A DNA stretch of 64,000 nt. It comes from Liolophura sinensis. Its lineage: Eukaryota; Mollusca; Polyplacophora; Chitonida; Chitonidae. The DNA lies in contig NC_088305.1 of the NCBI RefSeq assembly GCF_032854445.1, forward strand, positions 26,996,628 to 27,060,627. The letters run 5' to 3'. The notes under the pieces are model-generated. The model saw only the letters and a list, made by a program, of their open reading frames with translations. It made no database searches and had not been told where the DNA came from. The translations under genes and the position numbers were made by a program. Positions 34,641-64,000 of this stretch are shown piece after piece (positions within the stretch are counted from its first letter, which is position 1; each line of letters begins with the position of its first letter).

Positions 34641-35479
34641 GCTCGTATGAAAAGATTTATAAAGCCTCACTCTGAATACCGGTATTGCAAGGCTCACTTT
34701 GTGTAGGCCTAAAAAGCGCATTCTTTAAAGCTTCAGAAAATATTTTATAAAAGACTTATTTTCTAAAAACAACTTATTAAAACGCATCTTTAAAAAGGAC
34801 TTTTTTTTTAAGATTGAAGATCTTAACAAATTTAAATATATTTAACAATGAAAATATAACATTTGTTTTCTTAGCAGACGGCTTATAGGGCAAAGCTTTA
34901 AAAATCATTTTTCACATTTTAAAACCTTTTTACTAAACCTGATTAAAAATGCAACGATAACCATATGTGGATATATATGTATTGCTTACTGCACATTTCT
35001 GCATTTTCAAATTCCCCCCAAATGTTTATAAGAGAACTTCACAGTTCATGATGTATCTATTTTAGTGTAAGCACCAGTTTAAGCAAAGATATGGAATGTT
35101 TTCCTTGCTACCTAGGCCTACATACACACACAATGCACGTTTGTATTAGGCTGCCCAGGTAAAAAAATCATTAAATGCACGAGTCTTTACAAAACAACTG
35201 GTACATTTTGGCGGGGAATTTAGACGTGGGGAAGAAGAGGACAGATATGACACTTCGTATTTCAGTCAAGGTGCCGAGTTTTGAAAGCCTTATTCTTGTC
35301 CACGGCAGAAGAGATGGATTACGATGTTGAAAGGGGTGGGTTTAGTGTGGTATTCTTGTAAGGCGGAAAAAACAAAACTTTAGAAAATGGAGAAAATGCG
35401 TAACGAAAACAGGCCACCAAGTAAACCCAATGTCTTGTGGGAAGCGTGATCATGCTGATGAAATGTGTTTTGATTTATT

Positions 35480-35588
35480 CACGGGAGTTTTTATCTACCC
35501 TTAGTCCAGTCTCGCCTCTCCACACACAGCACTATATAATAAGTGTAAATAGACGAGATTAGACTGAGGGTAGATAAACACTCCTGTG
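35480..35588. repeat. Palindromic (MITE-like) hairpin, about 34-bp arms
   Basis: CACGGGAGTTTTTATCTACC plus CTTAGTCCAGTCTCG on the left is mirrored by CGAGATTAGACTGAGG plus GTAGATAAACACTCCTGTG on the right, around a loop of about 39 bases. Confidence 0.6.
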
Positions 35589-35825
35589 GATTTGTCAGAT
35601 ATAGTCATTGGCTATGATGGCATGATATGATATTTGACAGATAGTCGCCTACCTCGGTGCTGGGAAATATACAATTTACGGTATAAATTCTGGCACAAAA
35701 TTCAGTGTTGAGACTGAACTGGGTTTAGTTCAGTCACAGTCAGCAGTGTTTAGATAGGCTTTATTTTCACTCTACCGGTACTACATTCAGTCAACACAGA
35801 GACAGAAATTTTAGTTTTAGTTTTA

Positions 35826-35887
35826 GGGTGCCACCTAGCACAATTGTGAGCCTAAGGCTATCCCTAGAATTGTACTAGGTGCTACCA
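35826..35887. repeat. Short palindrome, about 19-bp arms
   Basis: GGTGCCACCTAGCACAATT is mirrored by AATTGTACTAGGTGCTACC. A related, weaker palindrome with AGCACAATTGTAGGGCTAGC occurs at about 37415-37490 in the next intron. Confidence 0.5.
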
Positions 35888-36191
35888 GTACTAAATAAAT
35901 TTTAAGGGTTGGATGCTCATGTTCCATCCAAGACTTTACAATTGCTTATCCTTCCTTGACATTTGAGTAATATAAGATTAATTGGCGTTTCCTTGGATGA
36001 CCAAGCCTTAATGTAAATCATGGAAAGAAAACAGCAGTTACAACAGGACTGATGTGCAAAATTTCAGTGCTATTCAGCTCTACTCCTGTCTTTCAGAATC
36101 GCTAAAGTTACATTATTTGTTGTCTTTTCTTTTAAAAATTGTTTGTATACTCTTTCATTTATGATTTTTTTCTTCATTTGTATTCATTCAG

Positions 36192-36306
36192 TGTTTCAAG
36201 TCCTCCAGGCACTCTACAGTGAAGTGTGGGTACTTCATGACTGGCTGAGGTTAATCAGTGCAGAAGGAGAGGGGAATCCCCTTGTGCAAGCTGCGGATTC
36301 ACAAAA
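36192..36306 (+). CDS. TERT: TERT exon, TEN domain start
   Basis: Acceptor TTGTATTCATTCAG; two bases complete a codon, then FQVLQALYSEVWVLHDWLRL continues to NPLVQAADSQ plus two bases, donor GTGAGG. It aligns with the vertebrate start (LLRSHYREVLPL). A frame from ATG at 36161 runs into it without splicing, but encodes MIFFFICIHS through the pyrimidine tract. I favour a spliced upstream exon. Confidence 0.8.
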
Positions 36307-39300
36307 GTGAGGAAAAAATTCAGTTGTCAAATGACCGTACTTGTAAAATACGTATCATTTGAAATCTGTCTAGAGTGAAAAACGACAAGGAATTTTACAT
36401 TTTATTGTGAAAACTGATAGACCTCAGCATTATTAGTTGAGGGAAAAACAAAAAAAACCTGATTAAATCAGTAGCAGACAGTGCTGAAGCAAAGGGAGAC
36501 CACTCTCTCTGATCATTAAGGCATAGACGACAGCTGTAGCAATTTTAGAAGCCACATCAGGAAAATATCAAATCAAATTTTCGGCATTTACCTTATTTAT
36601 TTATTTGATTGGTATTTTATGCCGTACTCAAGAATATTTCACTTATACAACGGTGACCAGCATTATGGTGGGTGGAAACCGGGCAGAGCCCGGTGGAAAC
36701 CCACGATCATCCGCAGGTTGCCGGCAGACCTTCCCACATATGGCCGGAGAGGAAGCCAGCATGAGCTGGACTTGAACTCACAGCGACCGCATTGGTGAGA
36801 GGCTCCCAATTACGCTCCACTAGCGTGCTAACCCACTCAGCCACGGAGGCCCAACTGCATTTACCAAGAATAGCTCATTATATTGCCTTTCACTAGATAT
36901 CACGCTCATAGCTGTAATATTTATAGTTTTAAAATAATTCTAAATTATAATGTGACCAATCGTGCCAGGTCTCTAACTTTTAAGGAATTTATTGCCGATT
37001 CTTTAATGGTAACAAAGGCTTACAAAAGGCTGATAATTTATGAAAGGTAACTATTTGGGCTATTCTAAAACAACAGCAATTATTTTACTTAACTCGTAAG
37101 TGGGAAAGTCTTCCAGCAACCTGCGGATGGTCGTGAGTTTCCCCTGGGCTCTGCCCGGTTTCCTCCCACCATAATGTTGGCTGCCGTCGTATAAGTGAAA
37201 TATCCTTGAGTATGGTGTAAAACACCAATCAAATAAATTTGACTTAATTTGCTCTGTTCGATTTTATGCCATAAATGGGTAGAATGGCTTCTTTAAATTC
37301 AGCTTTGATTTAAACTTTGGAACTAGATGCACCTGTAGATTGATAGACTGGCCAACAATAAGAGTAGCCTACGTGTATAGGCCTGCCATACCTGTAGCAT
37401 CAGGACTGCACCCCATGGAGTAGCACAATTGTAGGGCTAGCCTTAACAATCTTGACCTTTAATGCTAGCCCTATAATTATGCAACCCGTAGAGGTAGACA
37501 AGATGTGGAGTATTTCATGAGATGAGAATGGCTGTATTGATTTTGGAATGAACTGTAAACAGATGTGAGAGATGACTTGTCATTAGTTGATCAAACAGGA
37601 CATTACAAACAGTAACTGCTGTCATTAACATGTATTTTCATTATCTAATACGTCTTCTATTGTATGCATTTTTTCCATCAGTGTTTCGACATTTTTGGAA
37701 ATGACATCTTAAGAGCACTTTAAAGTGTGAATGCAGGATCAGCTTGATTTGTTTGGACAACTATCAGTCTTGACCTCACAACTGCAGGATACTTAATTTC
37801 TGGACTGACTGCTGACGATGTAGGAAAACTGTTCTTTAAAGCCTTTTTTTAAGAAGGAAGCTGAGAGAAACACATGGACGTAAACACCAATCGCTCCAAG
37901 TATCCTGCAATGCCAGCTGGCATCATTTCTGCGTAATGCAGTGTCTGTGACAGTCTGACACGTCGTAGCTCCTCTTACCCCAGTATAGGCACCCCAACAT
38001 GCATAGCCTGCTGGAAAAATTCATGACGATTTGTATAATTGGTTTATCTGAAATCAGTGTGCAATTTCACCAGCCATGTAAGCCACATCCACAGCAAATT
38101 ACTGAAAACTGGTCTGCTAGCAACATGCAGATGGTTGTGGGCTCTCCCCAGACCCACCATAATGCTGGCTGTTGTCGTACAAGTGAAATATTCTTGAATT
38201 TAGTGTAAATCATCGATCAAATATAAATATAAATCTTTGGATCTTTTCAGTTTCAAACTGCTCCTAAGCTCCACTGTGGTTGCCTTTTCCGCTAACAAGA
38301 AACCCCCACCTAAATGCCAGCGTGTTATCAGCTGTTCACACCAGAGGGAGCTGTTATTTAGGGTCGTTGGGGTAAGGAATTTGAGCCTTGGAATGTCCTT
38401 AACATCCATAATAACAGATGTGGGTATTTTTGGGTGACAAAGTCTTCAGAGTGTGTTCCTCTCTGGTTTTGTGCTGGTTCTTTTGTCGGTCTAAGACAAG
38501 TAAATATTTTAATCAAATGAATTAATAGAAAGATACATGTACAGTATATTCAAAATAGTTTTATAATGGCACAGGTCATAATCAGTAACTGTATTGACGT
38601 CTTTTTAATATAGAGAATAAAGAAGCAAGGCAGAGCAAACAAGAATGTGCTGACTCTGGGATTTGGAATGGTTTGTACAAATTACAGTGCATTTAACTTC
38701 GAAGTGAAAGTTACAGTACCTGAGAAAAAAGTAAATGTCAGTGTGAACATCATCAGAAAACTATATATTTCCATGTCTGAAACTACCTTTGTGTTTTTTT
38801 TTTTAGATTTGTTTTGACCAAATAAGATAAAGTCTATTGATTTAATTCTATGATGGTCTGTTTGTATCAATTTAGTTGTGTGATATCACAGAAGTTTTCT
38901 TTACATCTTGAATGCATGTCCTGTATTTCACCCCAAGTTCAGCATTTATCAAACGACCCATTATAGTTCTGATTGATTCACCCACCTTTTAGGGGCCTCC
39001 GTGACACAGTTGGTTAGCGCGCTAGCGCACCGTTATGACCAAAAAGCCTCTCACCCATGCGGTCGCTGTGAGTTCAAGTCATGCTGGATTCCTCTCCGGC
39101 CATACGTGGGAAGGTCTGACAGCAACCTGCGGATGGTCATGGGTTTCCCCTGGGCTCTGCCCGGTTTCCTCCCACTATAATGCTGGCCACTGTTGTATAA
39201 GAGAAATATTCTTGAGTATGGGGTAAAACACCAATCAAATAAATAAATAGATAATCACCTTTAACGGCTGCTTGAAAGGGTTTTCTTTTCTGAAGTTTGG

Positions 39301-42300
39301 CTAATTTCTTATCAGAAAAACTTATGTGTTAACTTACGTCTGATTTTAAGGCCTTTATGTGTTTTTGAAAGTGCCATGTGTACATACCAAACTTTGTAAG
39401 AAATACACTGCCCTATTTAATGGACTCTTTTGCTGAAAGAGCTCTTCTGGGTTTTGTTTGGCTTTCAGATATCTGATGATCAAAATGGCCGCATTGGCAG
39501 CCTCCCTGACATGGAATACCAGTACCCAAACAGCAACTTCAGTCAGCTCCATCTCTCTGTCTGGAATAAGCTATTGTCACGGTCAGTTTTGTTGTATTTA
39601 TGTATTTGTATATCTGACTGGTGAGTAATGACCAAAATATGATGACTTGAAGGCATCTGATTTATGGGTAACTGGAACCGAAGTGTCCAGAGTTAAAGTG
39701 TGGCGAGTGTGGCTGTGTTGGCAAGGCTGCATTATACCAGAGAAATTGGCACTTTAACTTTGATTTGATGACCTATTTCGGGATTATGGGTGGGGGTAGT
39801 GGGTGTGTCTGTGTTGGGAGGGGGGGGGGGGGGGGGGCGTTGGAATGCCTGGAGTATCATTCATTAGGAAGGGTTTTGCTGAAGATAATGTACATGTTAT
39901 GCATGGGCCTTTAAGTTTGGTGGAGTAATTAATGCACAAGCTGATGCGGGCTCCTTCTTTGCCTGTATGTGGCAAGGTTGGGCGGAAACTTGCGGTTGGT
40001 TGTGGGTTTCCCCCGGGCTATGCCACGTTTCCTCCTACCATAATGCTGGCCACCATCATCTAAGTGAAATACATGTATTCTTGAGAATGGCGTAGAACAC
40101 CAATCAAACATTTACATGTAAATAAATGAATTACAATACATGTACATGTGTAAAAGCATGGTGCAGAAGGTGGGTGTGAGCACTGTGTATCATTTTCAGC
40201 ATTGTGTATCATTTTCAGCATTGTGTATCATTTTCAGCGCAATGAGCTAATAAGTCAGTGCCACATGTAAGTGTCGGACTGGAGTCCTGTAAAGTGCCTT
40301 GTCTGTGTTAAGTTTGGTGTCGGACTGGAGTCCTGTAAAGTGCCCTGTCTGTGTTAAGTTTGGTGTCGGACTGGAGTCCTGTAAAGTGCCCTGTCTGTGT
40401 TAAGTTTGGTGTCAGACTGGAGTCCTCTAAAGTGCACTGACAGTGTTAAGTTTGGTGTCAAACTGGAGTCCTCTAAAGTGCACTGACAGTGTTAAGTTTG
40501 GTGTCGGACTGGAGTCCTGTAAAGTGCCCTGCCTGTGTTAAGTTTGGTGTCAGACTGGAGTCCTGTAAAGTGCCCTGTCTGTGTTAAGTTTGGTGTCAGA
40601 CTGGAGTCCTGTAAAGTGCCCTGTCTGTGTTAAGTTTGGTGTCGGACTGGAGTCCTGTAAAGTGCCCTGTCTGTGTTGAGTTTGGTGTCGGACTGGAGTC
40701 CTGTAAAGTGCCCTGTCTGTGTTAAGTTTGGTGTCGGACTGGAGTCCTGTAAAGTGCCATGTCTGTGTTAAGTTTGGTGTCAGACTGGAGTCCTCTAAAG
40801 TGCCCTGTCTGTGTTAAGTTTGGTGTCGGACTGGAGTCCTGTAAAGTGCCCTGTCTGTGTTAAGTTTGGTGTCGGACTGGAGTCCTCTAAAGTGCCCTGT
40901 CTGTTAAGTTTGGTGTCAGACTGAAGTCCTCTAAAGTGCCTTGTCTGTGTTAAGTTTGGTGTCAGACTGAAGTCCTCTAAAGTGCACTGTCTGTGTAAAG
41001 TTTGGTGTCAGGCTGCAGTCCTCTAAAGTGGCCTGTCTGTGTTAAGTTTGGTGTCAGACATTGAGCTAATATGTCAGTGCTAAGTGTCAGACTGGAGTCC
41101 TCTAGATTGCCCTGTCTGTGTCAAGTTTGGTGTCAGACTGGAGTCCTGTAAAGTGCCATGTCTGTGTTAAGTTTGGTGTCGGACTGGAGTCCTCTAAAGT
41201 GCCCTGTCTGTGTTAAGTTTGGTGTCGGACTGGAGTCCTGTAAAGTGCCATGTCTGTGTTAAGTTTGGTGTCGGACTGGAGTCCTCTAAAGTGCTCTGTT
41301 GTGTGTGTTAAGTTTGGTGTCGGACTTGAGTCCTGTAAACTGCCATGTCTGTGTTATGTTTGGTGTCGGACTGGAGTCCTCTAAAGTGCCCTGTCTGTGT
41401 TAAGTGGTGTCAGACTGAAGTCCTCTAAAGTGCCCTGTCTGTGTTAAGTTTGGTGTCAGACTGAAGTTCTCTAAAGTGCCTTGTCTGTGTAAAGTTTGGT
41501 GTCAGGCTGCAGTCCTCTAAAGTGGCCTGTCTGTGTTAAGTTTGGTGTCAGACATTGAGCTAATAAGTCAGTGCTAAGTGTCAGACTGGAGTCCTCTAGA
41601 TTGCCCTGTCTGTGTCAAGTTTGGTGTCAGACTGGGGTCCTCTGAAGTGCCCTGTTTGTTAAGTTTAGTGTCAGACTAGAGTCCTTTAAAATGCGCTGTC
41701 TGTGTTAAGTTTGGTGTCAGACTGAAGTCCTCTAAAGTGCACTGTCTGTGTAAAGTTTGGTGTCTGGCTGCAGTCCTCTAAAGTTTCCTGTCTGTGTTAA
41801 GTTTGGTGTCAGACATTGAGCTAATAAGTCAGTGCTAAGTGTCAGACTGGAGTCCTCTAAAATGCCCTGTCTGTGTTAAGTTTGGTGTCATACTGGGGTC
41901 GTCTGAAGTGCCTTGTCTGTGTTAAGTTTGGTGTCAGACTGAAGTCCTCTAAAGTGCCATGTTTGTGTCAGGTTTGGTGCCAGATTGGAGTCCTCTAAAG
42001 TGCCCTGTCTGTGTAAAGTTTGGTGTCAGACTGAAGTCCTCTAAAGTGCCTTGTCTGTGTAAAGTTTGGTGTCGGACTGGAGTCCTCTAAAGTGCCCTGT
42101 CTGTGTAAAGTTTGGTGTTGGACTGGAGTCCTCTGAAGTGCCCTGTCTGTGTTAAGTTTGGTGTCGGACTGGAGTCCTGTAAAGTGCCATGTCTGTGTTA
42201 AGTTTGGTGTCGGACTGGAGTCCTGTAAAGTGCCCTGTCTGTGTAAAGTTTGGTGTCAGACTGAAGTCCTCTAAAGTGCCCTGTCTGTGTCAAGTTTGGT

Positions 42301-45300
42301 GTCAGACTGAAGTCCTCTAAAGTGCCTTGTCTGTGTAAAGTTTGGTGTCAGGCTGCAGTCCTCTAAAGTTTCCTGTCTGTGTTAAGTTTGGTGTCAGACA
42401 TTGAGCTAATAAGTCAGTGCTAAGTGTCAGATTGGAGTCCTCTAGAATGCCCTGTCTGTGTCAAGTTTGGTGTCAGACTGGAGTCCTCTAAAGTGCACTG
42501 TTTGTTAAGTTTGGTGTCAGACTAGAGTCCTTTAAAATGCGCTGTCTGTGTTAAGTTTGGTGACAGACTGAAGTCCTCTAAAGTGCCTTGTCTGTGTAAA
42601 GTTTGGTGTCAGGCTGCAGTCCTCTAAAGTGCCCTCTCTGTGTTAAGTTTGGTGTCAGACATTGAGCTAATAAGTCAGTGCTAAGTGTCAGACTGGAGTC
42701 CTCTAAAACGCCCTGTCTGTGTCAAGTTTTGTGTCAGACTGATGTCCTCTGAAGTGCCCTATCTGTGTTAAGTTTGGTGTCAGTCTGGAGTCGTCTAAAG
42801 TGCCATGTTTGTGTCAGGTTTGGTGCCAGATTGGAGTCCTCTAAAGTGCACTGTCTGTTAAGTTTGGTGTCAGACTAGAGTCCTTTAAAATGTGCTGTCT
42901 GTGTTAAGTTTCATGTCAGACCGGAGTCCTCTAAAGTGCCTTTGTGTCAGACTGGAGTTCTTTAAAGTGCCTTGTCTGTGTTAAGTTTGGTGTCAGACTG
43001 GGGTCCTCTAAAATGCCTTGTCTGTGATAAGTTTGGTGTCAGACTGGAGTCCTCTGAAGTGCCCTGTCTATGTTAAGTTTGGTGTCAGACTGGAGTCCTC
43101 TAAAGTACACTGTCTGTTTCAAGGGAATGGGCCAGAGCCCTGTAGAACCCAAAACACCATGTGAGGCACACAGCTTAAAAAAACCTCTTCACACCAGGCT
43201 TTACTACTTCCAAACCAACATCACCTGGATTTGAGCCTACAGTCATACCTAATCCTTAGAGTCCCTGGTCTAGAGCTAGGTGGGTTAAACCTGAGGGAGT
43301 GTCGACTGCTAAGCCAATACATCTACTCTTGGGGAAAATATAAGTATCTGCATTAAAAGTAATATGTCATAACCTTCATTCGGCTTTAAATGCCTTTTGG
43401 GGCCAATTTTTAGGCCAAATATGGTATGTTTTCAGCACTTTGTGGAGACGACATTTTTCGCCAAATTCATTATTAGATTGAAGTTAATAATTTGTCTGCA
43501 TGTACTGCCCATGAATATTAGATTTTTATGTGATCTGTTTCAGGGTGGAGGATGCTGTAATGATGTACTTACTGGAGAATGCCTCCCTGTTTCTGCATGT
43601 AGAGGGCATACATATAAGGTTTTGCTGCGGTCTATTTCAGGGTGGGGGACGCTGTAATGATGTTCTTACTGGAGAATGCCTCCCTGTTTCTGCCTGTACA
43701 GGGCATACATGTAAGGTTTTGCTGTGGTCTGTTTCAGGGTGGGGGACGCTGTAATGATGTTCTTACTGGAGAATGCCTCCCTGTTTCTGCCTGTACAGGG
43801 CATACATGTAAGGTTTTGCTGTGGTCTATTTCAGGGTGGGGGACGCTGTAATGATGTACTTACTGGAGAATGCCTCCTTCTTTCTGCATGTAGAGGGCAT
43901 ACATGTAAGGTTTTGCTGTGGTCTATTTCAGGGTGGGGGACGCTGTAATGATGCACTTACTGGAGAATGCCTCCCTGTTTCTGCCTGTACAGGGCATACG
44001 TGTAAGGTTTTTCTGTGGTCTGTTTCAGGGTGGGGGATGCTGTAATGATGTACTTACTGGAGAATGCCTCCCTGTTTCTGCCTGTACAGGGCATACGTGT
44101 AAGGTGTTGCTGTGGTCTATTTCAGGGTGGAAGACACTGTAATGATGTACTTACTGGAGAATGGTTACCTGTGTCTGCCTGTATAGGGCATATGTGTAAG
44201 GTGTTGCTGTGGTCTGTTTAAGGGTGGGAGACACTGTAATGATGTACTTACTGGAGAATGCCTCCCCGTTTCTGCCTGTACAGGGCATACATGTAAGGTT
44301 TTGCTGTGGTCTATTTCAGGGTGGGGGACGCTGTAATAATGTACTTACTGGAGAATGCCTCCCTGTTTCTGCCTGTATAGGGCATACATGTAAGGTTTTG
44401 CTGTGGTCTGTTTCAGGGTGGGGGACGTGGTAATGATGTTCTTACTGGAGAATGCCTCCCTGTTTCTGCATGTAGAGGGCATACATGTAAGGTTTTTCTG
44501 TGGTCTATTTCAGGGTGGGGGACGCTGTAATGATGTACTTACTGGAGAATGCCTTCCTGTTTCTGCATGTAGAGGGCATGCATGTAAGGTTTTGCTGTGG
44601 TCTATTTCAGGGTTGGAGACACTGTAATGATGTACTTACTGGAGAATGCCTTCCTGTTTCTGCATGTAGAGGGCATACATGTAAGGTTTTGCTGTGGTCT
44701 ATTTCAGGGTGGGAGACACTGTAATGATGTACTTACTGGAGAATGCCTTCCTGTTTCTGCATGTAGAGGGCATACATGTAAGGTTTTGCTGTGGTCTATT
44801 TCAGGGTGGGGGACGCTGTAATGATGTACTTACTGGAGAATGCCTTCCTGTTTCTGCATGTAGAGGGCATACGTGTAAGGTGTTGCTGTGGTCTATTTCA
44901 GGATGGGGGACGCTGTAATGATGTACTTACTGGAGAATGGTTACCTGTGTCTGCCTGTATAGGGCATATGTGTAAGGTGTTGCTGTGGTCTGTTTAAGGG
45001 TGGGAGACACTGTAATGATGTACTTACTGGAGAATGCCTCCCTGTTTCTGCCTGTACAGGGCATACATGTAAGGTTTTGCTGTGGTCTATTTCAGGGTGG
45101 AGGATGCTGTAATGATGTACTTACTGGAGAATGCCTCCCTGTGTCTGTATGTACAGGGCATACATATAAGGTTTTGCTGTGGTCTAGTTCAGGGTGGGGG
45201 AGGCTGTAATGATGTACTTACTGGAGAATGCCTCCCTGTTTCTGCATGTAGAGGGCATACATGTAAGGTTTTGCTGTGGTCTATTTCAGGGTGGGGGACG

Positions 45301-48300
45301 CTGTAATGATGTACTTACTGGAGAATGCCTTCCTGTTTCTGCATGTAGAGGGCATACATGTAAGGTTTTGCTGTGGTCTATTTCAGGGTTGGAGACACTG
45401 TAATGATGTACTTACTGGAGAATGCCTTCCTGTTTCTGCATGTAGAGGGCATACATGTAAGGTTTTGCTGTGGTCTATTTCAGGGTTGGAGACACTGTAA
45501 TGATGTACTTACTGGAGAATGCCTTCCTGTTTCTGCATGTAGAGGGCATACATGTAAGGTTTTTCTGTGGTCTATTTCAGGGTGGGGGACGCTGTAATGA
45601 TGTACTTACTGGAGAATGCCTTCCTGTTTCTGCATGTAGAGGGCATACATGTAAGGTTTTGCTGTGGTCTATTTCAGGGTGGGGGACGCTGTAATGATGC
45701 ACTTACTGGATAATGCCTCCCTGTTTCTGCCTGTACAGGGCATACGTGTAAGGTGTTGCTGTGATCTGTTTCAGGGTGGGGGACGCTGTAATGATGTACT
45801 TACTGGAGAATGGCTACCTGTTTCTGCCTGTACAGGGCATACGTGTAAGGTGTTGCTGTGGTCTATTTCAGGGTGGGAGACACTGTAATGATGTACTTAC
45901 TGGAGAATGCCTCCCTGTTTCTGCCTGTACAGGGCATACATGTAAGGTTTTGCTGTGGTCTATTTCAGGGTGGGGGACGCTGTAATGATGTACTTACTGG
46001 AGAATGCCTTCCTGTTTCTGCATGTAGAGGGCATACATGTAAGGTTTTGCTGTGGTCTATTTCAGGGTGGGAGACACTGTAATGATGTACTTACTGGAGA
46101 ATGCCTCCCTGTTTCTGCCTGTACAGGGCATACATGTAAGGTGTTGCTGTGGTCTATTTCAGGGTGGGGGACGCTGTAATGATGTACTTACTGGAGAATG
46201 GCTACCTGTGTCTGCCTGTACAGGGCATACGTGTAAGGTGTTGCTGTGGTCTATTTCAGGGTGTGAGACACTGTAATGATGTACTTACTGGAGAATGCCT
46301 CCCTGTTTCTGCCTGTACAGGGCATACGTGTAAGGTGTTGCTGTGGTCTATTTCAGGGTGGGGGACGCTGTAATGATGTACTTACTGGAGAATGGCTACC
46401 TGTGTCTGCCTGTACAGGGCATACGTGTAAGGTGTTGCTGTGGTCTATTTCAGGGTGGGGGACGCTGTAATGATGTACTTACTGGAGAATGCCTTCCTGT
46501 TTCTGCCTGTATAGGGCATGCATGTAAGGTTTTGCTGTGGTCTATTTCAGGGTGGGGGACGCTGTAATGATATACTTACTGGAGAATGCCTCCCTGTTTC
46601 TGCCTGTACAGGGCATACGTGTAAGGTGTTCCTGTGGTCTATTTCAGGGTGGGAGACACTGTAATGATGTACTTACTGGAGAATGCCTCCCTGTTTCTGC
46701 CTGTACAGGGCATACGTGTAAGGTGTTTCTGTGGTCTATTTCAGGGTGGGGGACGCTGTAATGATGTACTTACTGGAGAATGGCTACCTGTTTCTGCCTG
46801 TATAGGGCATGCATGTAAGGTTTTGCTGTGGTCTATTTCAGGGTGGGGGACGCTGTAATGATGTACTTACTGGAGAATGCCTCCCTGTTTCTGCCTGTAC
46901 AGGGCATACGTGTAAGGTGTTGCTGTGGTCTATTTCAGGGTGGGAGACACTGTAATGATGTACTTACTGGAGAATGGCTACCTGTTTCTGCCTGTACAGG
47001 GCATAGATGTAAGGTGTTGCTGTGGTCTATTTCAGGGTGGGGGACGCTGTAATGATGTTCTTACTGGAGAATGCCTCCCTGTTTCTGCATGTAGAGGGCA
47101 TACATGTAAGGTTTTGCTGTGGTCTATTTCAGGGTGGGGGACGCTGTAATGATGTTCTTACTGGAGAATGCCCCCCTGTTTCTGCCTGTAAAGGGCAAAC
47201 ATCTAAGGTTTTTCTGTGGTCTGTTTCAGGGTGGGGGATGCTGTAATGATGTTTTTACTGGAGAATGCCTCCCTGTTTCTGCCTGTACAGGGCATATGTG
47301 TAAGGTGTTGCTGTGGTCTATTTCAGGGTGGGGGACGCTGTAATGATGTACTTACTGGAGAATGGCTACCTGTGTCTGCCTGTATAGGGCATGCATGTAA
47401 GGTTTTGCTGTGGTCTATTTCAGGGTGGGGGACGCTGTAATGATGTACTTACTGGAGAATGGCTACCTGTTTCTGCCTGTACAGGTCATACGTGTAAGGT
47501 GTTGCTGTGGTCTATTTCAGGGTGGGAGACACTGTAATGATGTACTTACTGGAGAATGCCTCCCTGTTTCTGCCTGTACAGGGCATACGTGTAAGGTGTT
47601 GCTGTGGTCTATTTCAGGGTGGGGGACGCTGTAATGATGTACTTACTGGAGAATGGCTACCTGTGTCTGCCTGTATAGGGCATGCATGTAAGGTTTTGCT
47701 GTGGTCTATTTCAGGGTGGGGGACGCTGTAATGATGTACTTACTGGAGAATGCCTCCCTGTTTCTGCCTGTACAGGGCATACGTGTAAGGTGTTGCTGTG
47801 GTCTATTTCAGGGTGGGAGACACTGTAATGATGTACTTACTGGAGAATGGCTACCTGTTTCTGCCTGTACAGGGCATACATGTAAGGTGTTGCTGTGGTC
47901 TATTTCAGGGTGGGGGACGCTGTAATGATGTTCTTACTGGAGAATGCCTCCCTGTTTCTGCCTGTACAGGGCAAACATCTAAGGTTTTTCTGTGGTCTAT
48001 TTCAGGGTGGGGGACGCTGTAATGATGTTATTACTGGAGAATGCCTCCCTGTTTCTGCCTGTACAGGGCATACGTGTAAGGTGTTGCTGTGGTCTATTTC
48101 AGGGTGGGAGACACTGTAATGATGTACTTACTGGAGGATGCCTCCCTGTTTCTGCCTGCACAGGGCATACATGTAAGGTTTTGCTGTGGTCTGTTTCAGG
48201 GTGGGAGACACTGTAATGATGTACTTACTGGAGAATGCCTCCCTGTTTCTGCCTGTACAGGGCATACATGTAAGGTTTTGCTGTGGTTTATTTCAGGGTG

Positions 48301-51300
48301 GGGGACGCTGTAATGATGTACTTACTGGAGAATGCCTCCCTGTTTCTGCATGTTCCTCCGTCCTGTTATACACAAATCACAGGTGAGCCTCTGTCTCATA
48401 TCCCCTTTCCGGAACAACATAACATTTAATTGTTTAATGCTGATTTTAAACGTTTGTAGTTGTAAAACACCTTTAAGCTCATAATACAGAAGGGCGGAGG
48501 GGGGGTGGCAATATTTTTCATTTTTGGGCTATTTGTTGTAATTTTAATGCCTGTTTATGCATAATTTCAGTTAGCACTTTGTATTTTGCAAATGCCACAT
48601 CAGTGTGATTAGAGCAAACAGCCAGATATGGAGCCTGTCATCAGTTTATTTAATGCACAATCTTCTTGTCTCTCTCCCATATGGTTGTTTTGACGGTATT
48701 CTACATCATCAGTCTACATGTAGTTCATTAGCTGTCCAGTTGACTGCTTAATGGAATTAAACCTCACCTTTAAAGCAATTTTTACTTCCTAAGAAAAATA
48801 TAGAGCACAAAAACATTAAGTTTCCTGAATTTTAAAAGGAGGAGAAAACATAAAAATGATGCCAATATCAAATGAAAGAGCGTCAAAACATATTTGCAAG
48901 TACGATCTTTAATGTGTTTTTGGAATTTTTTTTTTTTTTCAAGAGAAAAGGGTATTTGAAAATATTTGTGTATGGTGGGTATTTGGGACCAACTTTTGGT
49001 ATTTATCATTGTTGCATAATAATGTTCTAAATAAGGATGTGATGCTTGACTATTAAATGTATTTCAATGTAAATTTGTTGTTTATATCGAAACACATGCA
49101 TATAACCTAAATTATGATAATATTTATGAACATATTAAAAATATAACTATGATCCAAAGTGAGGTTTAATACATTTGTTAGCTGAGAAAAACACACTCTA
49201 GTGCCAAAATATTTTTTTTAACCTGTGTTACATCCTAATTTATGACATTATTAAACAAAGACTAAATACCAAAAGGTGGTCCCAAATCCCTACCATACAA
49301 AATTATTTTCAAGTGTCTTTTTCTCCTTAAGGAAAAATCGGAAAAAAATATTGAATCTGTTTTGGTGTAATTGTTAGTGTCAGTTTTTATGTTGTTGTTA
49401 ATGTCAGTTTTGGTGTGATTGTTAGTGTCAGTTTTTGATGTCATTGTTAGTGTCAGTTTGGTGTGATTGTTAGTGTCAGTTTTGATGTCGTTGTTAGTGT
49501 CAGTTTTGGTGTGATTGTTAGTGTCAGTTTTGATGTTGTTAGTGTCAGTTTTGGTGTGATTGTTAGTGTCAGTTTTGATGTCGTTGTTAGTGTCAGTTTT
49601 AGTGTGATTGTTAGTGTCAGTTGTGATGTCATTGTTAGTGTCAGTTTTGGTGTCATTGTTGGCTCTGTTCTCTTTAACCTCCAGTGATTTAATAAGCCAG
49701 TGATGTAATAAGCACCCAGTTAAGTCATTGGAAATATGAGAGACAATGTACATGTAGTTCTCAGTTACCAGGCTCATGAAAAGAAAAAAAGAAAATAATC
49801 ATGTATAAATGTCTCGGTCACAAATTTGTCATGGAAAAGGCATGGCTTTCTATTTTCTGAAAATGTTCATCATGAATATGGATTTGTGATATTTTTTTAT
49901 CAATGCTCCATTCACACATGTCTGATGGTCAGGGCTACGTAATTTTATTTGTGCAATGGTGGTTTTCAGATTTTCTCTTTTGAGATGGCAGAAGTCCAAA
50001 ACTATTTTTATATTTTCTTTTTTTGTAGTGTATGTATATAATGCATAAAATGTTATTCAGCGCTGTGAAGGACTGGTGGTTTAGTTCTGTCGTTTTTCAG
50101 GTTTTCCTGCTCACAATCTACCATGTTTCGATTTTCGATCTCGTGAGTTGTGTCTGAAAGCCCCTGCCCATTTGTCTGTGAAGGAAAAACCCAGGTCCAG
50201 TCTGTGTTCAGGAGGTAGTGCTAATACTACTGAGGAGCAGCCTGAGGAGATGAGTGAAGCAAAACATGCCGCAAAACAACTCTCAAGGAAACGAAAACGA
50301 TCCATTGAGGATGAAAAAGAGTTGTTCACAATAGGAAAACGAAGATGCTTTCACCAGTGTGTTGCTACAAAGACTTGCAGCGGGAAAATTTCGGTGGTTG
50401 AGGTATGTGATGATCACATGTATATGTATGCATTTGATCATGTTAATTAGTTCTTATATACGTGTATTTTATATTGGGTGAAAAGACAATATCCTGTGAC
50501 TGCTGTTTCACCAAGAAGGTGGATTGGACAAGCTAATGTTGTCAACTGAGACATACATGTAAAGCATGAGGAAAAACATTTGACATGAGAAGACGGTGCA
50601 AGTACCATATATATATATATCACTGTACTGGGAATATTCTTCAACTTTTTCGTATTTTGCAAGGAGTTTATTCAAGCATATTGTGAAGGCATTGTTCTAT
50701 GTACAGTGTAGACTGATAAATTATACTTTTTCTGAAGCCTTGAAACTGGCCAATCCAACAAATGTAGCTTTGTCTCCAAAATCAGATTAAAAACGAGAAA
50801 AAATTGCACTGAAAGTTGCTCTTTCATATGCAAGAACTTTGAACTGTGATGTCACTCCTGTGCAATATCACAAATATAAAACGTTATGCTTTTAAAAATT
50901 CCTGTGGCATAATTTATCGATGAATGTATACATTTGGCCTAGAGTCAGTAGTTTTGTCGGGTATTCAGGAAAGAGCTGTGGTTTAGTGGGCACTTCACTT
51001 ATAAACCTTAACACTCAAGTTCACCATGGCATTTTTTCATGGCAGTTTCTACAGCTTCAGTGCTCAAGTCACATTTAGGTCAGGAATTTAATGATTTATT
51101 TATTTGATTGGTGTTTTACGCCGTACTCAAGAATATTTCACTTATACTATGATGGCAGCCAACATTCTGGTGGGAGAAAACAGGTCAGGAGTTTTAAATG
51201 TACATGTCTGGTCATTATTGCAGATCTTTGTAACAAGCTGGTCGCAATGGTGACATGTTGGCAGTGCTGCCTCACTAAATAACCATACTCAAGACACCTG

Positions 51301-54300
51301 ACATGATACCCCACCCAGTCACTGTGTACATACAATGGGCAGGTCAAGAGGTTAGATCCCTAATACATTCATGAATTTTCGCTTCAGCAAGTCACTGAGA
51401 GAAAAACGTCGTCTGGAACTTGTGATGTCATTGTTCCTGAACAATGTCAGACATCTAAATGGAAAATGCGGCGTGGCAAGAAGAAAAGGATTCAAAGACA
51501 TCCACCGCATGAAGTTACAGCAGCTTCTCTGAAATATAAGTAAGGGCTGGACGTGCATTATGCTTTGTTTTTAATTGGATGGCATTTTGATTACAGTTTG
51601 CTTAGTTTTAATTGAATGGTGTTTCGATCACATTATACCTTGTTTTCATTGGATGATGTTTGATTTGCTTGACTGTCTCGGGCATTAAAGTTAGTGGATC
51701 CTGGGGTATATTTTTTGCAACAGTCTTTGTAATATGTGTGTTAATTATATATATTTATTTGATTGATGTTTTACGCCATACTCAAGAATGTTTCACTTAT
51801 ATGACGACGGCCAGCATTATGGTGGGAGGAAACTGGGCAGAGCCCGGCCAAAACCCATGACCATCCACAGGTTGGTGACAGACCTTCCCATATACATTGA
51901 AGAGGAAGCCAGCATGAGCTGGACTTGAACTCATAGCAACCACGTAGGTGAGAGGCTCCTTTTTCATTGTTGATTATAGATTTGTTGGCATTTGGAATGT
52001 TGAACGAATGTTGGGCGAGAAGGCAGCTTATTGATAAATGATTTTTTAAATTATTTCAAGGAGCAGTTCAATAGACATGCACACGTTCCCCAAAACTGTT
52101 GGAAAAAAACTGGAATTAATTTTCTTAGGCAAGTTTTCATTTTTTCAAGTTGCAACAAAACCTTGAATTGGGCTCGGTGTTTGTACAGAAGAGACCTGAG
52201 AGAAAAGTGGCCTAAAGATCGTAAGTTTTGTGTAGGAATCTATGTTTTGTGAACATCTGTGTCTTTTAATACTTAACTTCACAGTAGGCCTCACGATCTT
52301 ACTCCAGTACCAGTCTTTCACTACAGTAGTAGGCCTCAAGATCTTACTCTAGTACCAGTCGTTCACTACAGTAGTGGGCCTCAAGATCTTACTCCAGTAC
52401 CAGTCGTTCACTACAGTAGTGGGCCTCAAGAGCTTACTCCAGTACCAGTCGTTCACTACAGTAGTGGGCCTCAAGATCTTACCCCAGTACCAGTCGTTCA
52501 CTACAGTAGTGGGCCTCAAGATCTTACTCCAGTACCAGTCATTCACTACAGTAGTTGGCCTCAAGATCTTACCCCAGTACCAGTCGTTCACTACAGTAGT
52601 GGGCCCCAAGATCTTACCCCAGTACCAGTCGTTCACTACAGTAGTGGGCCTCAAGATCTTACTCCAGTACCAGTCATTCACTACAGTAGTGGGCCTCAAG
52701 ATCTTACCCCAGTACCAGTCGTTCACTACAGTAGTGGGCCCCAAGATCTTACCCCAGTACCAGTCGTTCACTACAGTAGTGGGCCTCAAGATCTTACCCC
52801 AGTACCAGTCGTTCACTACAGTAGTGGGCCTCAAGATCTTACCCCAGTACCAGTCGTTCACTACAGTAGTGGGCCTCAAGATCTTACTCCAGCACCTGTC
52901 GTTCACTACAGTAGTGGGCCTCAAGATCTTACTTCAGCACCAGTCATTCACTACAGTAGTGGGCCTCAAGATCTTACTCCAGTACCAGTCGTTCACTACA
53001 GTAGTGGGCCTCAAGATCTTATTCCAGCACCAGTCGTTCACTACAGTAGTGGGCCTCAAGATCTTACTCCAGCACCAGTCGTTCACTACAGTAGTGGGCC
53101 TCAAGATCTTACTCCAGTACCAGTCGTTCACTACAGTAGTGGGCCTTAAGCTCTTGAGACAGTGGACAATGGACGAGTCTTCTCCACGTGCAGAAAGGCA
53201 GAATTTAAAATTTAGATGGATGTAATAAATGCATCTATATCCAGTACAGCTGGTTCCTAACCATCAGTCCTACGCCCACTTGGGCTGGAGGATATGCTGA
53301 CAGTTGACCCATGGTCAGCGTACGATACACCAGCCATGCACCTTCATACACCTACCATGACACTATCCCCCGGCTGTCATACACCGGCTGTCAGCAGACC
53401 ATTGGCCCATGATCATCAAATGTTTTAACGCTAAATACAGACCCATTTCCTGTAACCAGTCATGTCTAAACACCATGATGGCTTGCAGCATATTTACTTG
53501 CTCACGAATTTTGCACAAAATTTAAGTTTTAATGGCTTACTGTATGGGACCGCTACTGTTTTGGTCCGCCACGCGTGTACACTGTTCTCTATAGGTCGGG
53601 ATTCAAGTATGTACCAGCTGCCTCAGGTGTACGATTTTTTGTTTTAATACAAATTACTTCAATAGTTATTAAATAACAGGTCTGCTTAGAGGCATTTACG
53701 GCAGAGTTATGTTGGGACAAATATATGTATATGCAACACATTGCTTTCTCTGAAGTCTGCGCTGTACATGACAGCTCTGTACAACCGTGGCAGCATTTCA
53801 GAATTTGGAAACAGACTCCTCGGTTCCTTGGCTTATCAGTAAATTTATCACAGTTTTCATGTTGGATATAAAATTACAAAGGAATATTTGACTTTATTAT
53901 GTGATATGTGTCAACCTGCGTGCTGATATACGCTTAAAAAACCTCTATTGAATATGTATATGTAATTAGTCATATCGGTACATCACACAAGGCCTAATGT
54001 ATAAAATTCAAACCACTGACACATGTAATGGTCATCATGTTAATGTTTAATCTTGAGTCCCTAAATTGTATCCCCAATGTCAAAGTCCTATTATTTATTA
54101 ATTTTATAAGCACAGAAATGGGTTTATTATAAGAAGAGTGCAATCATATGTAGCCTTTGTATATGGGTGGAGACATGCAATGTAGGCCCCAGGCCTACAT
54201 ATATGTGTATGCATCTTAAATCTTGCATAAAATCAAGCTATAAAATGTATTACATATTTTCATAACATTCCTCTACCTATCCATTTATAAAGTATTAAAA

Positions 54301-57300
54301 TACACCAAGAAAGTATAGATCAAAATGGAGACTTTTCATATGGGTGAAAGGAAATCTATTAGAACAATTCCAGTCCAATTTTTGGTGTTACTTTAGAATA
54401 GCCCTGATAATTACCTTTCACGAAATATCAACCTCCTAATACAAGGTCGACGTTAAACCCCAAGCACTCACTCACTCACTCCTAATACAAGGTCGACGTT
54501 AAACCCCAAGCACTCACTCACTCACTCACGTTAAACCCCATGCACTCCCTCACTCACTCACTCACTCACTCACTCCTAATACAAGGTCGACGCTAAACCC
54601 CAAGAACTCACTCACTCACTCCTAATACAAGGTCGACGTTAAACCCCAAGCACTCAATCACTCACGTTAAACCCCAAGCATTCCCTCACTCACTCACTCC
54701 TAATACAAGGTCAACGTTAAACCCCAAGCACTCACTCACTCACTCACTCACGTTAAACCCCAAGCATTCCCTCACTCACTCACTCCTAATACAAGGTCAA
54801 CGTTAAACCCCGAGCACTCACTCACTCACTCACTCACACTAAACCCCAAGCATTCCCTCACTCACTCACTCCTACTACAAGGTCAACGTTAAACCCCAAG
54901 CTCTCACTCACTCACTCATTCCTAATACAAAGTCGACGTTAAACCCCAAGCACTCGCTCACTCACTCACTCACGTTAAACCCCAAGCACTCCCTCACTCA
55001 CTCACTCCTAATACAAGGTCGACGTTAAACCCCAAGCACTCACTCACTCACTCACTCACGTTAAACCCCAAGCACTCCCTCACTCACTCACTCACTCCTA
55101 ATACAAGGTCAACGTTAAACCCCAATCTCACTCACCCACTCACTCGTAATACAAAGTCGACGTTAAACCCCATGCACTCACTCACTCACTCTCTCACTCC
55201 TAATCCAAGGTCAACGTTAAACCCCAAGCTCTCACTCACTCACTCCTAATACAAAGTCGACGTTAAACCCCATGCACTCACTCACTCACTCACTCCTAAT
55301 ACAAAGTCGACGTTAAACCCCAACAGTGTACGTCCAGTGTCATTACATCAGACTCCAGCAAGGGAGTGAATGTCACAAAATGATACGCTGACCATGGCGC
55401 AACCATGCAATGACTGTCGGCGGACCATGTGCTGACCCGGATGGGAGGCGAAGGATGACAGTGTGTTTAATCGGGGTCCGGCCAGGGTCGGTGTATAGTG
55501 TATGATCCACAGACCATGACTGTACTGTACTCTTAGATTTAAGCAGTGGAATTTTTTTTTTTTTAATTTGTCTGGTTTCAAAACTATATTCAAACATACT
55601 TCACTGTTTGATGAGTTCATGTTTAATTTACAGGGGAATCGAGAAAGCCAAGTGCTTTTGTCAGGTAATTATAAAATCTGCTTGTATTTTTTCAGATTGC
55701 ATGAATTTTCACAGCATTAGCAAACAAGCCCAAACAACAAAGCTTTTCCATTCAATGTTTGCTGAAGTTTTACCTCCTGAGAAACACAGCAGTGCATTAA
55801 AAGGTAGAAATATGACTGAAGTACCTCAACTTGATGGACAGCCTCCTAGTGAGAATGACCAGAACTACAGCACTGAAGAGATGAGAGGGGAGACAACTGC
55901 AGACAGTGGTGGATTACTGGCTGTCCTTACCAAAGTTAAACCACACCTCGAACACATTATAGCAAACCACAGGTATGGCTAATGAAATTAAAAAAATTTC
56001 AGATTTAGTTATTTTAAATCAAAGCTCATGTAATTTTATGAAGTGATTTCTCGCATGGTTGACCTTGTGTGAAAATACTGTTTATGATCCAGTTATTTTT
56101 TTGGAATGGTGGACCCTATAGTGACCATGGAGCCTATAGTCATTGTTGCACCCTATGGTGATATGGTGGGCCTTATTAGGAACTCTATACTGACTGGGGG
56201 CCGTATAGTGGTTGTGAACCCTATAATGATTGTTGCTCCCTATAGTGATTTTTGCACTTTAGAGTGATTGGTGAGCCTTATAGTGATTAAGAACTCTATA
56301 GTGACTGGGGGCCCTATAGTGATTGGTGGGCCTCATAGTGATTAGGAACTCTATAGTGACTGGGGGCCCTATAGTGATTGTGAACCCTATAATGATTGTT
56401 GCACCATATAGTGATTGTTGCACTTTAGAGTGATTGGTGAGCCTTATAGTGATTAAGAACTCTATAGTGACTGGGGGCCCTATAGTGATTGTGAACCCTA
56501 TAATGATTATTGCTCCCTATAGTGATTGTTGCACTTTAGAGTGATTGGTGAGCCTTATAGTGATTAAGAACTCTATAGTGACTGGGGGCCCTATAGTGAT
56601 TGTGAACCCTATAATGATTGTTGCACCATATAGTGATTGTTGCACCCTATAGTGATTGGTGAGCCATATTGTGATCAGGAACTCTATGGTGACTGGGGGC
56701 CCTATAGTGATTGGTGGGCCTTGTAGTGATTAGGAACTCTATGACCACCTGCACGTTGCTGCCAGACCTTCCCATGTATGGGAGGAAGATAGAGGCTCCT
56801 TCTGGCATGCTTATCAAGGGACATTATGCCATAATAACTCACCATTAATTTTTTGTGGTCAGAATTTTCTCTCACATTTCATGATATTAATCAAATGATA
56901 TCTAAAATAATTTAACAGGAGGTTAACCCTGTGATATATGTCTCTCTCCCCCTGTCTCTGTACACAGGTCTTGTCCATTCCGTCCCTTGCTGAATCAGTA
57001 CTGTTCCATTTCCAAGATGAAAAGAAGTTGCAGATGTTCATCTCGTGTTAGGAACACGAATGCACCCGTGTCAAGCACGTATCAAAGTATCTCTGATGTC
57101 CCTCACCCTACCGTTGAGAACCATGACCATGTTATTTCAGATGCAGGTTCAAGTCCAGCAGTCAGCACAGTACCACGTAAGTGTGCATGTAATCATGTGC
57201 TCTGCATAACTGTCAGGTCCGATGGAGGTACATGTATTGCCAAAGATGTTGGTGTTTTTTTTGAGATCTTTGTTTTGTTTTTTTTGCGACTAATTCTTTT

Positions 57301-60300
57301 TTGGAGGCCATTTTTGCAAGATATTCCACACTCACTTAAAAGAAGGACATTTAAACCTCATAAGGCTATTCAGGTGGATTTGCTGTGAATTCTTTAACAT
57401 GAAGATGGATCAATGCAAAAAAATAATGCATACATTGATGGAAGTTACCATGTAAAATGTTAAGTCTCAGTGTCTCATTAGCTAGATTATGTGACGTGTT
57501 ATGATCATAAATCTTCAGCATTCAGACAGAATATATGATATGATTTGATGTCACATTGATTAGAGCTCATATTACAACAAAAATATAATAATTTAGTGTA
57601 TCCACAAAAGTTTTGTGGCCTCTGAGCTAACTACATGTATATGTACATGTGTAGTACAAGACGCTTGAAATTCTTGGTATTCATAAGAGAGAACCTCAAA
57701 CAAAGGAGAGTACTCCTACTGACCAATAACACCCTGAAGTCCAGCAAGGTTGAGATGCTTGATGCTTTAAAATGTTAGATTGTCAGGCTGCTAGTTCAGA
57801 CCCTATGTTGGACCAGGAATGTTTGAGATTTCCTGGTCTTCACCATTCTTGGGGCCTTGGCTGAACGAAGCCATCAACAGCTCTTGTAGGGCCTGTAGGA
57901 AAGTTGGCCAGTTGCCTGCCGAAGGTGAGCGGTTTCCTCCACAGGTATTCGTGTTCCAGTGTCTTGTTAATATATTAAGTGAAATATTTTCTTGGTACAT
58001 ATGCAGCATTGTTAAAACCCATGGGAAGGTGTTGCCAGCAAACTGTGGATGGTTGTGGGTTTCCCCCGAGCTCTGCCCGGTTTCGTCTCACCATATCCTG
58101 GAAGGTTTGGCAGTAAACAGTGGATGGTCGTGGGTTTCCCCTGGGCTCTGCCCGGTTTCCTCCCACCATAATGCTGGCCGTCATCATATGAGTGAAATAT
58201 TCTTGATTATGGCATAAAGCACTAAATAAATAAAGGTAGAAGAGTTAAAATTATCCCCCCGCCCCTCCCCCTTTCAGATGCAATGGCAGCATTTTTACAC
58301 CTGTCTGCATGTCAGTGGGCATTTTTCGCATGTTTCTCAATATACCCCAAACCATAAAAGGGAGATGGGATGTTGAACTTAAGTGTTTCAGCTGAAAAAC
58401 TTATCTCAGCAGCTACTGTCAAGATTACATGACATTAGACTAATTGTTACCCTGCATCAATAAAACAACTTCCTGGACATGAAAATAGCAACATCTGTGA
58501 GAGGCATGTAGAAGTTGTAGAGTTGAGTGTGAAGCTGTTGTTGGAGAACTTCATTTTCATTGTTTTCTCTGTGTACACAGATCTGTGCCCACAGTTGTTT
58601 GGTACCTCAACATTTTGCCGAACTAGGTGTAAGCTCAGGAAGAAACGTGTCAGAATGAGTCTGTTGTTGGGAGATCATGTCCATCCTAGAAAGGTAAGTT
58701 TTGGTCGATCATGTGAGAATTTCGGAGGTCAGTATTTTATCTCATGCTTTCACATCATGGTGAAAAATATTTATAATTTGAATCTGTCCATTTATCTGTT
58801 TGCTTGCCTGGCATATATTTAATTCCATCCCATAATTACTCCAGATATTGTCCAATTTTGACAAAATTTTGTGTGCAGTTTTTTTTTGGGTATTCTCCAA
58901 TGATTCTGTTTTGTTGATTCTATAAATTGATTTAATTTTGGTTTTCAAATATAATCAAATCAAATCAGTCTTTGTTAAATTTTGCTAACGGTTTTGTCTG
59001 TAGTTTTTTGTGGCCCCTCAAGTGAAGTTCCAAACCCAAATGTATCTACAGCAGTTGTTACATATTTAACAATTTCCTTGATTTGATCCCCCTGATAGCT
59101 TGTATTAAGCCTGAGACATGTTATTCTCTGAATTTACTTGTTTTTGATCCCCTGAAAGTCTGAATGTTGGACTTGTCATGCTCTTCTTATTTTGATTTAC
59201 ATACAGTATATTTATGTATTTATTTATTTATTTGATTGGTGTTTTTTGCCATACTCAAGAATATTTCACTTCTACGACGGCGGCCAGCATTATGGTGGGA
59301 GGAAACCGGCCATAGCCCATGGTAAACCCATGACCATCCGCAGGTTGCTGACAGACCTTCCCACTTACGGCCATACAGTATACACACTGTTCATGTACCA
59401 GTGGACATGGAGATGTAATATGTTATTCAAGTTGGTGTATAATCTCAAAGCCCATTCTGACTTCAGGAAAACCTTTAAATTTCACGACGTTTCACTCAAA
59501 TGAGTATAAAATAGTTTTATGAAGATGGCCTCGCTGTGGTTATAATTCTGTTTCTCTCTCGTCCCTGCAGGTATTCCTCTTCCTAAGGCAAGTCTGCTTG
59601 CGAGTCATCCCAAAAGATTTACTCGGCTGTCAGAACAACTGGAACAGATTCATGAATAACATACGATCCTTATTATCTATGGGACGGTATGACAAAATAA
59701 AACTGGATCATCTACTCCTCAGGATGAAGGTAAAGACCGTATTTCTATTTTCTGTCTGTTTTTTTTTTCTTTGTCAACAGTTTGTGGTGAGAAGACATTT
59801 ATACGCTTGTAATTTGTTTCTAAATCATGAATAGTGTAACTCTGAAAAATGAAAACTTCATTATGACTCAGTATTTTGGCATTTTAGCATTTCATTTTGC
59901 CGTCATGTGGCTTCTGGTGACTCAAAGTAAAATGCCAGAGTCTTGATTTGCAATGTTATGAGGTCTTTGTTTTTCAGAGTTGTGTGTTATGTAAAACTAA
60001 AGTGGCACAACATTAGTTTCTTTCTTCCATGAAAGAATAGAATGTTTGACAAAGGCTATATACATGTATATCAAGACTGTATTAAAGTGAAAGACAGCAC
60101 CAGACTAATGGGTATGCCCACTGAAAGACCTACCATTCAAAGTATCTGGAACCGGCATTAAATATTTTTTTAGATTTTTTTCAACCCAGTCAGGGTTTAG
60201 TGAAACTTCATCTTGTCACAGCCTTAGCACGTCTCCATATACAACATTAAGGCGACATTGTGTTAACTCTGTAAAGTGGAAGTTATTTTCTGTATTATAG

Positions 60301-63255: not shown

Positions 63256-63259
63256 TGTT

Positions 63260-63755: not shown

Positions 63756-64000
63756 TATAAATGCTGATACAAATGAATACCCGCTCTGTTTGTCTACCCA
63801 TTTTGCACAGCAGCCTACATGGTGCGTTTTATGTATATAACAGATCTGTTTAAAGCAAACAATCTTCTACAAGTTTCAAGCAATACTGCGTATTGTAGCC
63901 AAGGTTATAGAACAGTGCAGCTAGGGAAATATCAGTTTCAGAGGTTGGGATTAATTTATTTGATTATTTATTTGCATGTTGTGAATGCCATATATGTACT

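Follow-up and report, generated by a model that had tools for sequence, protein, structure and literature searches.

The TERT locus of Liolophura sinensis

The window considered here, a stretch of 64,000 nucleotides (nt) of DNA from the chiton Liolophura sinensis, sits at positions 26996628–27060627 of pseudomolecule C11 and carries the first 15 coding exons of the gene for telomerase reverse transcriptase, TERT. Directly upstream of exon 6 of this gene stand 49 tandem units of 97 base pairs (bp), each with a decoy copy of the exon 6 splice acceptor; the array is probably a minisatellite grown from the boundary between intron 5 and exon 6. The assembly paper reports a genome of 609.5 megabases in 632 scaffolds, with HiFi reads (SRX20411988) of mean length 8,347 bp at 14x coverage. 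A published correction changed the species name from L. japonica to L. sinensis.

A composite of the exon pieces has as by far its best match the telomerase reverse transcriptase-like protein of L. sinensis at NCBI (1226 amino acids; two hits), and this annotated protein maps exactly onto 32 coding exons (Table 1). The coding sequence of 3681 nt is an open frame whose translation equals the annotated protein plus a stop codon. All four expected domains, TEN, RBD, RVT_1 and TERT_C (PF11474, PF12009, PF00078 and PF21399), score above their Pfam cut-offs and follow one another in order. The identification of the gene and of the parent exon made by an earlier, sequence-only reading of this DNA is borne out. 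In the annotated gene model 30 of 31 junctions are GT-AG, and the smallest intron measures 242 nt. The remaining junction, between exons 24 and 25, is GT..TG (72564 / 73375 in window coordinates); it is noncanonical, and the model may be wrong there.

Exon 6 resembles the corresponding region of other TERTs on both sides of the array's edge. The part that belongs to the array agrees with oyster, toad and urchin at 7, 12 and 10 of 20 positions, respectively, and the unique part at 6, 6 and 8 of 10.

Table 1. Features of the TERT locus, in window coordinates
Feature	Position	Strand	Evidence
TERT gene, coding exons 1–15 in the window	35314..64000, continuing past the window to 80249	+	exact spliced mapping; Pfam
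TERT coding exon 5, TEN domain, donor ACG/GTCAGT, phase 2	39469..39581	+	exact spliced mapping
Intron 5, 8715 nt, longest TERT intron of the model; contains the 46-bp array and the 97-bp boundary array	39582..48296	+	mapping, Tandem Repeats Finder
46-bp minisatellite in intron 5, with no model exon inside	40271..43117	+	Tandem Repeats Finder, exon map
Incomplete unit at the left edge, starting with CTGCATGT; former 3′ end of intron 5	43496..43543	+	in-register match to unit consensus
49 decoy units of 97 bp, each beginning just past a decoy acceptor: 57 bp exon-6-like and 40 bp of intron end	43544..48296	+	Tandem Repeats Finder, unit alignment
True TERT coding exon 6, 86 nt, donor CAG/GTGAGC; encodes VGDAVMMYLLENASLFLHVPPSCYTQIT and split codons	48297..48382	+	mapping
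Exon 6 copy of CTGCATGT, the 8-mer also found at 43496–43503; homology ends here on the right; putative duplication breakpoint	48346..48353	+	comparison
Second splice-boundary array, about 7 units of 126 bp, from exon 15's own donor GAG/GTGGGT into intron 15	62087..62959	+	Tandem Repeats Finder, mapping, BLAST

Anatomy of the 97-bp array

The array is perfectly regular in length. From the start of its first decoy unit to that of exon 6 the distance is 4753 bp, or 49 × 97, precisely as the sequence-only reading had it, and an anchor motif recurs 50 times at steps that are all 97 bp long (49 of 49). Tandem Repeats Finder gives the tract, 4.86 kilobases (kb) long, a score of 8075 with 49.7 copies, 93% matches and 0% indels, which excludes a chance origin. 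The first 57 bp of exon 6 form the last copy of the array, and it is solely in this copy that the 3′ part of the exon and its donor are present, again as had been claimed. A search of the genomic DNA with exon 6 returned at least 50 matches, all of them in this stretch of C11 and corresponding to exon 6 and the 49 decoys (one candidate region was scored).

The sequence of the units is less uniform than their length. The repeats had been described as exact, which is right for their 97-bp period and wrong for their letters: there are 43 distinct sequences among the 49 units, with pairwise identities of 81–100% and a mean of 92.6%. Within the unit 43 columns are variable, 23 of them with a minor base in at least two units and 20 with singletons only. 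No decoy is identical to exon 6 over the shared 57 bp, the best match being 56 of 57 (reached by 9 of the 49), and the exon-derived part, put earlier at 57–60 bases, is not longer than 57.

Splice signals have been copied along with the rest. The decoy acceptor reads TTTCAG in 46 of 49 units, or 47 of 50 counting exon 6, where all 50 had been given this motif; two units have TTTAAG and one has GTTCAG. The AG is retained in all 49 and CAG in 47. A donor-like site, said to lie in every unit, has its GT at +70 in 45 of 49 decoys and has lost it in four. The 45 decoys with both an AG acceptor and a GT at +70 therefore each offer a potential pseudo-exon of 70 nt, and adjacent pseudo-exons are separated by gaps of 27 nt. 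All decoys are entered in the same phase, as the sequence-only reading noted, this being a direct consequence of copying. The unit spans the exon 6/intron 5 boundary of its host gene, the splice signals are repeated from unit to unit and the array's edge preserves the authentic exon 6 boundary; these are anatomical features of boundary minisatellites, the 'mirages' of lancelets among them.

Origin of the array

At its left edge the array passes into a diverged partial unit. Between 43495 and 43543, 36 of 49 positions agree with the unit consensus in register. When the boundary words are set aside 22 of 34 positions still match, compared with a mean of 9.2 for shuffled sequences, none of which reached 22 in 20,000 trials; elsewhere in the locus, 1816 windows ending in CAG include none that matches as well. 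Further upstream the likeness to the unit falls to chance (12 of 49). The word CTGCATGT occurs both at the end of intron 5 and at positions 50–57 of exon 6, and before the array formed the two copies would have been separated by 97 bp.

The array most likely arose, to judge from these patterns, through tandem duplication and unequal exchange. Since homology begins and ends at CTGCATGT, a duplication between short direct repeats is inferred: slippage or unequal exchange between the two copies of the word would have duplicated the 97 bp between them, made up of the acceptor-bearing last 40 bp of the intron and 57 bp from the exon. The duplication would then have grown to 49 extra units by unequal crossing-over and conversion, leaving the sole complete exon at the downstream end of the array. 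Units are most alike when they stand 8 or 9 places apart (93.7% and 93.9% identity, respectively, versus 92.6% overall), and an exact match of 213 bp is found at a lag of 9 units, as expected for unequal exchange of blocks. The first whole unit, with 10 differences from the consensus against a mean of 4.6, is among the most divergent. No trend in identity to exon 6 that would indicate growth from the exon side was found along the array (Spearman −0.04, P = 0.76) in a test of polarity that used 84 columns, five of them beyond the shared 57 bp. The suggestion that the array was recently homogenised is thus upheld in part: shared variants and a mild excess of identity at lags 8–9 speak for homogenisation, while the mean identity and the diverged left edge count against it.

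Sequence constraint on the decoys

Variation is similar in the two parts of the decoys, affecting 4.5% of sites in the part that comes from the exon and 5.2% in the part that comes from the intron. Over 18 codons the distinct changes relative to exon 6 comprise 24 nonsynonymous, 3 synonymous and 1 stop; counted per unit, they amount to 113, 21 and 1. All possible single changes over the same codons would be 119 nonsynonymous, 38 synonymous and 5 stop. Because the two parts vary alike and the codon changes lack constraint, the decoys are not maintained as coding sequence.

Departures from the consensus are distributed differently over the splice signals. None was found at the acceptor AG (0 of 98) or at donor positions +3 to +5 (0 of 147), compared with 4.75% per site overall, and four of 98 were found at the donor GT.

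Splice-site strength and modelled transcripts

Splice sites were scored with a weight matrix built from TERT's own canonical junctions. The true exon 6 acceptor scores 8.9, and the decoy acceptors score 1.7–8.9 with a median of 7.1; the true site beats 47 of the 49, and two lie at or above it. The annotated protein uses exon 6 at 48297 and zero decoys.

The outcomes of decoy use were computed in silico from the genomic sequence. Inclusion of a single decoy exon places the first stop codon at position 145, 163 or 210 in all 49 cases (45 of which have both AG and GT). Two non-adjacent decoys give an early stop in 1128 of 1128 pairs, and three, which restore the frame by length, do so in 16215 of 16215 triples. 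A decoy spliced directly to exon 7 likewise terminates early in 49 of 49 cases. Entry at a decoy acceptor with read-through of the array meets a stop after no more than 71 codons in 48 of the 49 cases and at 77 in the other, close to the limit of about 70 codons proposed from the sequence alone. Skipping of exon 6 itself brings a stop at codon 158.

The RNA of three units shows no special fold (z = +1.42), 187 of 200 shuffled sequences being at least as stable. Pairing of the RNA such as that of human TERT was considered and rejected: when 101 kb of the locus was searched by BLAST with the unit, just eight matches of 11–13 bases lay outside the array. G4Hunter scores reach a maximum of 1.48, with 304 windows of 25 nt at 1.2 or above and none at 1.5, and a role of the array through G-quadruplexes is a weak possibility.

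A second boundary array and the surroundings

Intron 15 holds a second array at a splice boundary (Table 1). It repeats the donor motif GAG/GTGRGT six more times within the intron, and at most the last three exon bases seem to be shared; it is the 5′-boundary counterpart of the array before exon 6, with hardly any exon sequence.

Tandem arrays (period of at least 10, at least 3 copies) make up 30.9% of TERT intron bases, compared with 6.7% in 20 other 10-kb stretches of the genome (range 0–22.8%). Three stretches upstream of TERT have 0.8%, 14.8% and 12.6%, and one downstream has 18.6%; since these flanking stretches are partly raised too, TERT may simply lie in an array-rich location. Only 2 of the 62 splice sites of TERT fall inside arrays, whereas placing the 11 tracts at random would put a mean of 15.3 there (P = 0.001), and arrays at exon edges therefore look selected against.

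Three other open stretches lie upstream of TERT. On the minus strand at 31688–32809, about 2.5 kb from the TERT start, a stop-to-stop frame of 374 amino acids contains DDE_3 and HTH domains and represents a Tc1/mariner-like transposase. A plus-strand stretch at 17386–17706 matches DNA_pol_A_exo1 barely over the Pfam cut-off and is possibly an exon of an exonuclease-like gene. At 24139–24480 on the minus strand, an open stretch matching RVT_1 is probably the remnant of a retroelement.

Interpretation of the array

The evidence as a whole argues, with good though not complete confidence, for a minisatellite of the lancelet 'mirage' kind that would have grown from an exon–intron boundary inside an intact TERT gene, in which the last acceptor is mainly used and the decoys are otherwise unselected. 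Splicing most likely picks the last copy, as in the annotated protein, so that the decoys would be mostly skipped and mostly harmless. The spliceosome would mainly link exon 5 to the last acceptor, removing the 49 decoys with the intron, and this preference is expected because only the last acceptor belongs to an exon with a proper 3′ half and donor. It also speaks for this reading that the 27-nt gap separating adjacent pseudo-exons is far under the minimum intron of TERT. Rare use of a decoy, whether as a 70-nt pseudo-exon or by read-through, would shift the frame and lead to an early stop, and such RNA would be expected to be removed by nonsense-mediated decay. That the array is skipped entirely is the best supported of the options offered by the sequence-only reading, in that the annotated protein contains no decoys, its basis being a gene model.

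Several observations weigh against this account. Of the 49 decoy donors, 27 equal or exceed the score of the true donor, 6.2; 47 of the decoy acceptors outscore the weakest canonical acceptor of TERT. By themselves, the splice sites favour the last copy just slightly. Exon definition as the reason for ignoring the decoys is thus something we infer, since the site scores barely single out the true boundary. The annotated protein is itself a gene model with a noncanonical exon 24/25 junction and is not beyond doubt. That the decoy AG and donor positions +3 to +5 vary so little might mean that splice signals are constrained, a point given little weight because the units are not independent. On the side of origin, the gain in identity at lags 8 and 9 is small, and the first unit is exceeded in divergence by an internal unit at 44126, which has 11 differences from the consensus.

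It is also conceivable, though unlikely, that the array is a working brake, in which up to 45 pseudo-exons compete for the exon 5 donor and divert a regulated share of TERT pre-mRNA to early stops, with array length setting the output. The strength of the decoy sites (the weakest canonical real TERT site is outscored by 47 of the 49 acceptors and by 45 of the 49 donors), their nearly invariant signal bases and the early termination of every modelled decoy use would all suit such a device, and deletion of a minisatellite in intron 6 of human TERT alters isoform ratios, according to the passages on splicing in PMC11830802 and PMC3948165. Set against these points are an annotated protein without any decoy, the scarcity of TERT splice sites inside arrays relative to random placement, the ordinary fold of the RNA and the normal splicing that PMC3087553 and PMC3902484 report for lancelet boundary arrays. 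The more specific version, a length-coded brake in which some 45 complete 70-nt poison exons compete with exon 6 and the inherited or somatic number of units sets the amount of productive TERT mRNA, is quite improbable; if it were true, chitons and primates would have reached minisatellite control of TERT splicing independently. A tuning role of the array is possible and unsupported. The proposal of the sequence-only reading that the array tunes or cripples TERT splicing found no direct support, given that the protein skips all 49 decoys, the decoys are unconstrained and the lancelet arrays splice normally.

The damaging half of that proposal, a gene crippled by its array and on the way to becoming a pseudogene, is highly improbable. 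Fifty acceptors do compete and each modelled use of a decoy ends in an early stop, but the frame of TERT is open over all 32 exons with its four domains recognised, exon 6 has no other genomic match among the matches listed (one candidate region scored), and the assembly paper gives telomeres for 7 of 13 pseudomolecules with a TTAGGG-type sequence in its table. It is very unlikely that the array is an artefact of assembly, its copy number inflated or collapsed and the real array different or absent. Coverage is modest and the 46-bp array lies just upstream, which would favour an error; the tract is, however, shorter than the mean read, and the 43 distinct sequences with their block pattern are unlike a simple artefact. 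The exact count of 49 may belong to one haplotype. As for alternative coding exons that diversify the TEN domain, the phase of every decoy acceptor is correct and a donor-like site accompanies 45 of the 49, but 70 nt cannot be divided by three, early stops result from one, two or three decoys and from read-through alike, and the codon changes show no constraint. This candidate was accordingly rejected, the reading frame nearly excluding it.

Significance

The chiton array is a real, oversized example of the known boundary-minisatellite kind, located in a mollusc and in the gene for telomerase. It makes chiton TERT a natural experiment in splice-site choice, with 50 near-identical acceptors in one intron that differ mainly in what lies downstream. 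Should almost all splicing go to the last of them, exon definition would win over 'first come, first served'; otherwise the gene reveals the leakiness of the choice. The array also illustrates how a minisatellite can take in a portion of a functional exon and possibly overwrite it. Public RNA data for L. sinensis (BioProject PRJNA973839) cover digestive gland, foot, gill, gonad and heart, so no further sequencing may be needed to answer the main question.

Comparison with known systems

In lancelets, minisatellite-like tandem duplications of exon–intron boundaries, named 'mirages', are described for Adh3, the globins BflGb6 and BflGb9, TnC and PGBD5 in PMC3087553 and PMC3902484. There the repeats of BflGb6 comprise the 3′ end of an intron and the 5′ part of exon 2, with units 81–100% identical, and reverse-transcription PCR suggests regular splicing; the Adh and TnC mirages are said to yield no aberrant mRNAs. 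As far as those accounts go, mirages and the chiton array share units made of an intron end and the adjacent part of an exon, copied splice signals, an authentic boundary at the edge and, less clearly in the chiton, signs of internal homogenisation. BflGb6 represents the same 3′-boundary type as the 97-bp array, and other mirages repeat the 5′ splice site like the array in intron 15. What sets the chiton case apart is its place in a mollusc TERT, the presence of two such arrays in one gene and the donor-like site in most units. Its unit number is also far above that of BflGb6: the chiton has 49 extra units, whereas 6 and 3 are given for two BflGb6 haplotypes and three for lancelet PGBD5. Length variation and correct splicing are reported for the lancelet mirages in these sources, and the chiton array is known from one assembly and gene model.

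Among the papers listed on boundary minisatellites and on TERT in connection with variable-number tandem repeats, splicing or molluscs, no such array in a mollusc or in TERT was evident from titles and the openings of abstracts, and the boundary arrays met with were those of lancelets. Nor is one mentioned in 12 of 36 places of a paper on metazoan TERT (PMC5405514). Two protein searches for relatives gave no second chiton TERT among the 2 and 4 proteins listed.

A long minisatellite in a TERT intron is also found in humans. VNTR6-1, in intron 6, has a 38-bp unit in 24–66.5 copies, lies about 3.5 kb from exon 7 and is reported absent in non-primates in the parts of PMC11830802 and PMC3948165 that describe it; its effect on splicing was shown by deletion. 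The chiton unit differs in being 97 bp long and in including the acceptor of coding exon 6, and VNTR6-1 is at most a functional parallel. Decoy exons are unproductive exon-like intronic sites able to engage the spliceosome, and the decoys of the chiton array are alike in concept. They differ from the decoy exons of intron retention or detention, for example that of OGT (PMC12017769), in that the chiton has 49 tandem copies of a real boundary.

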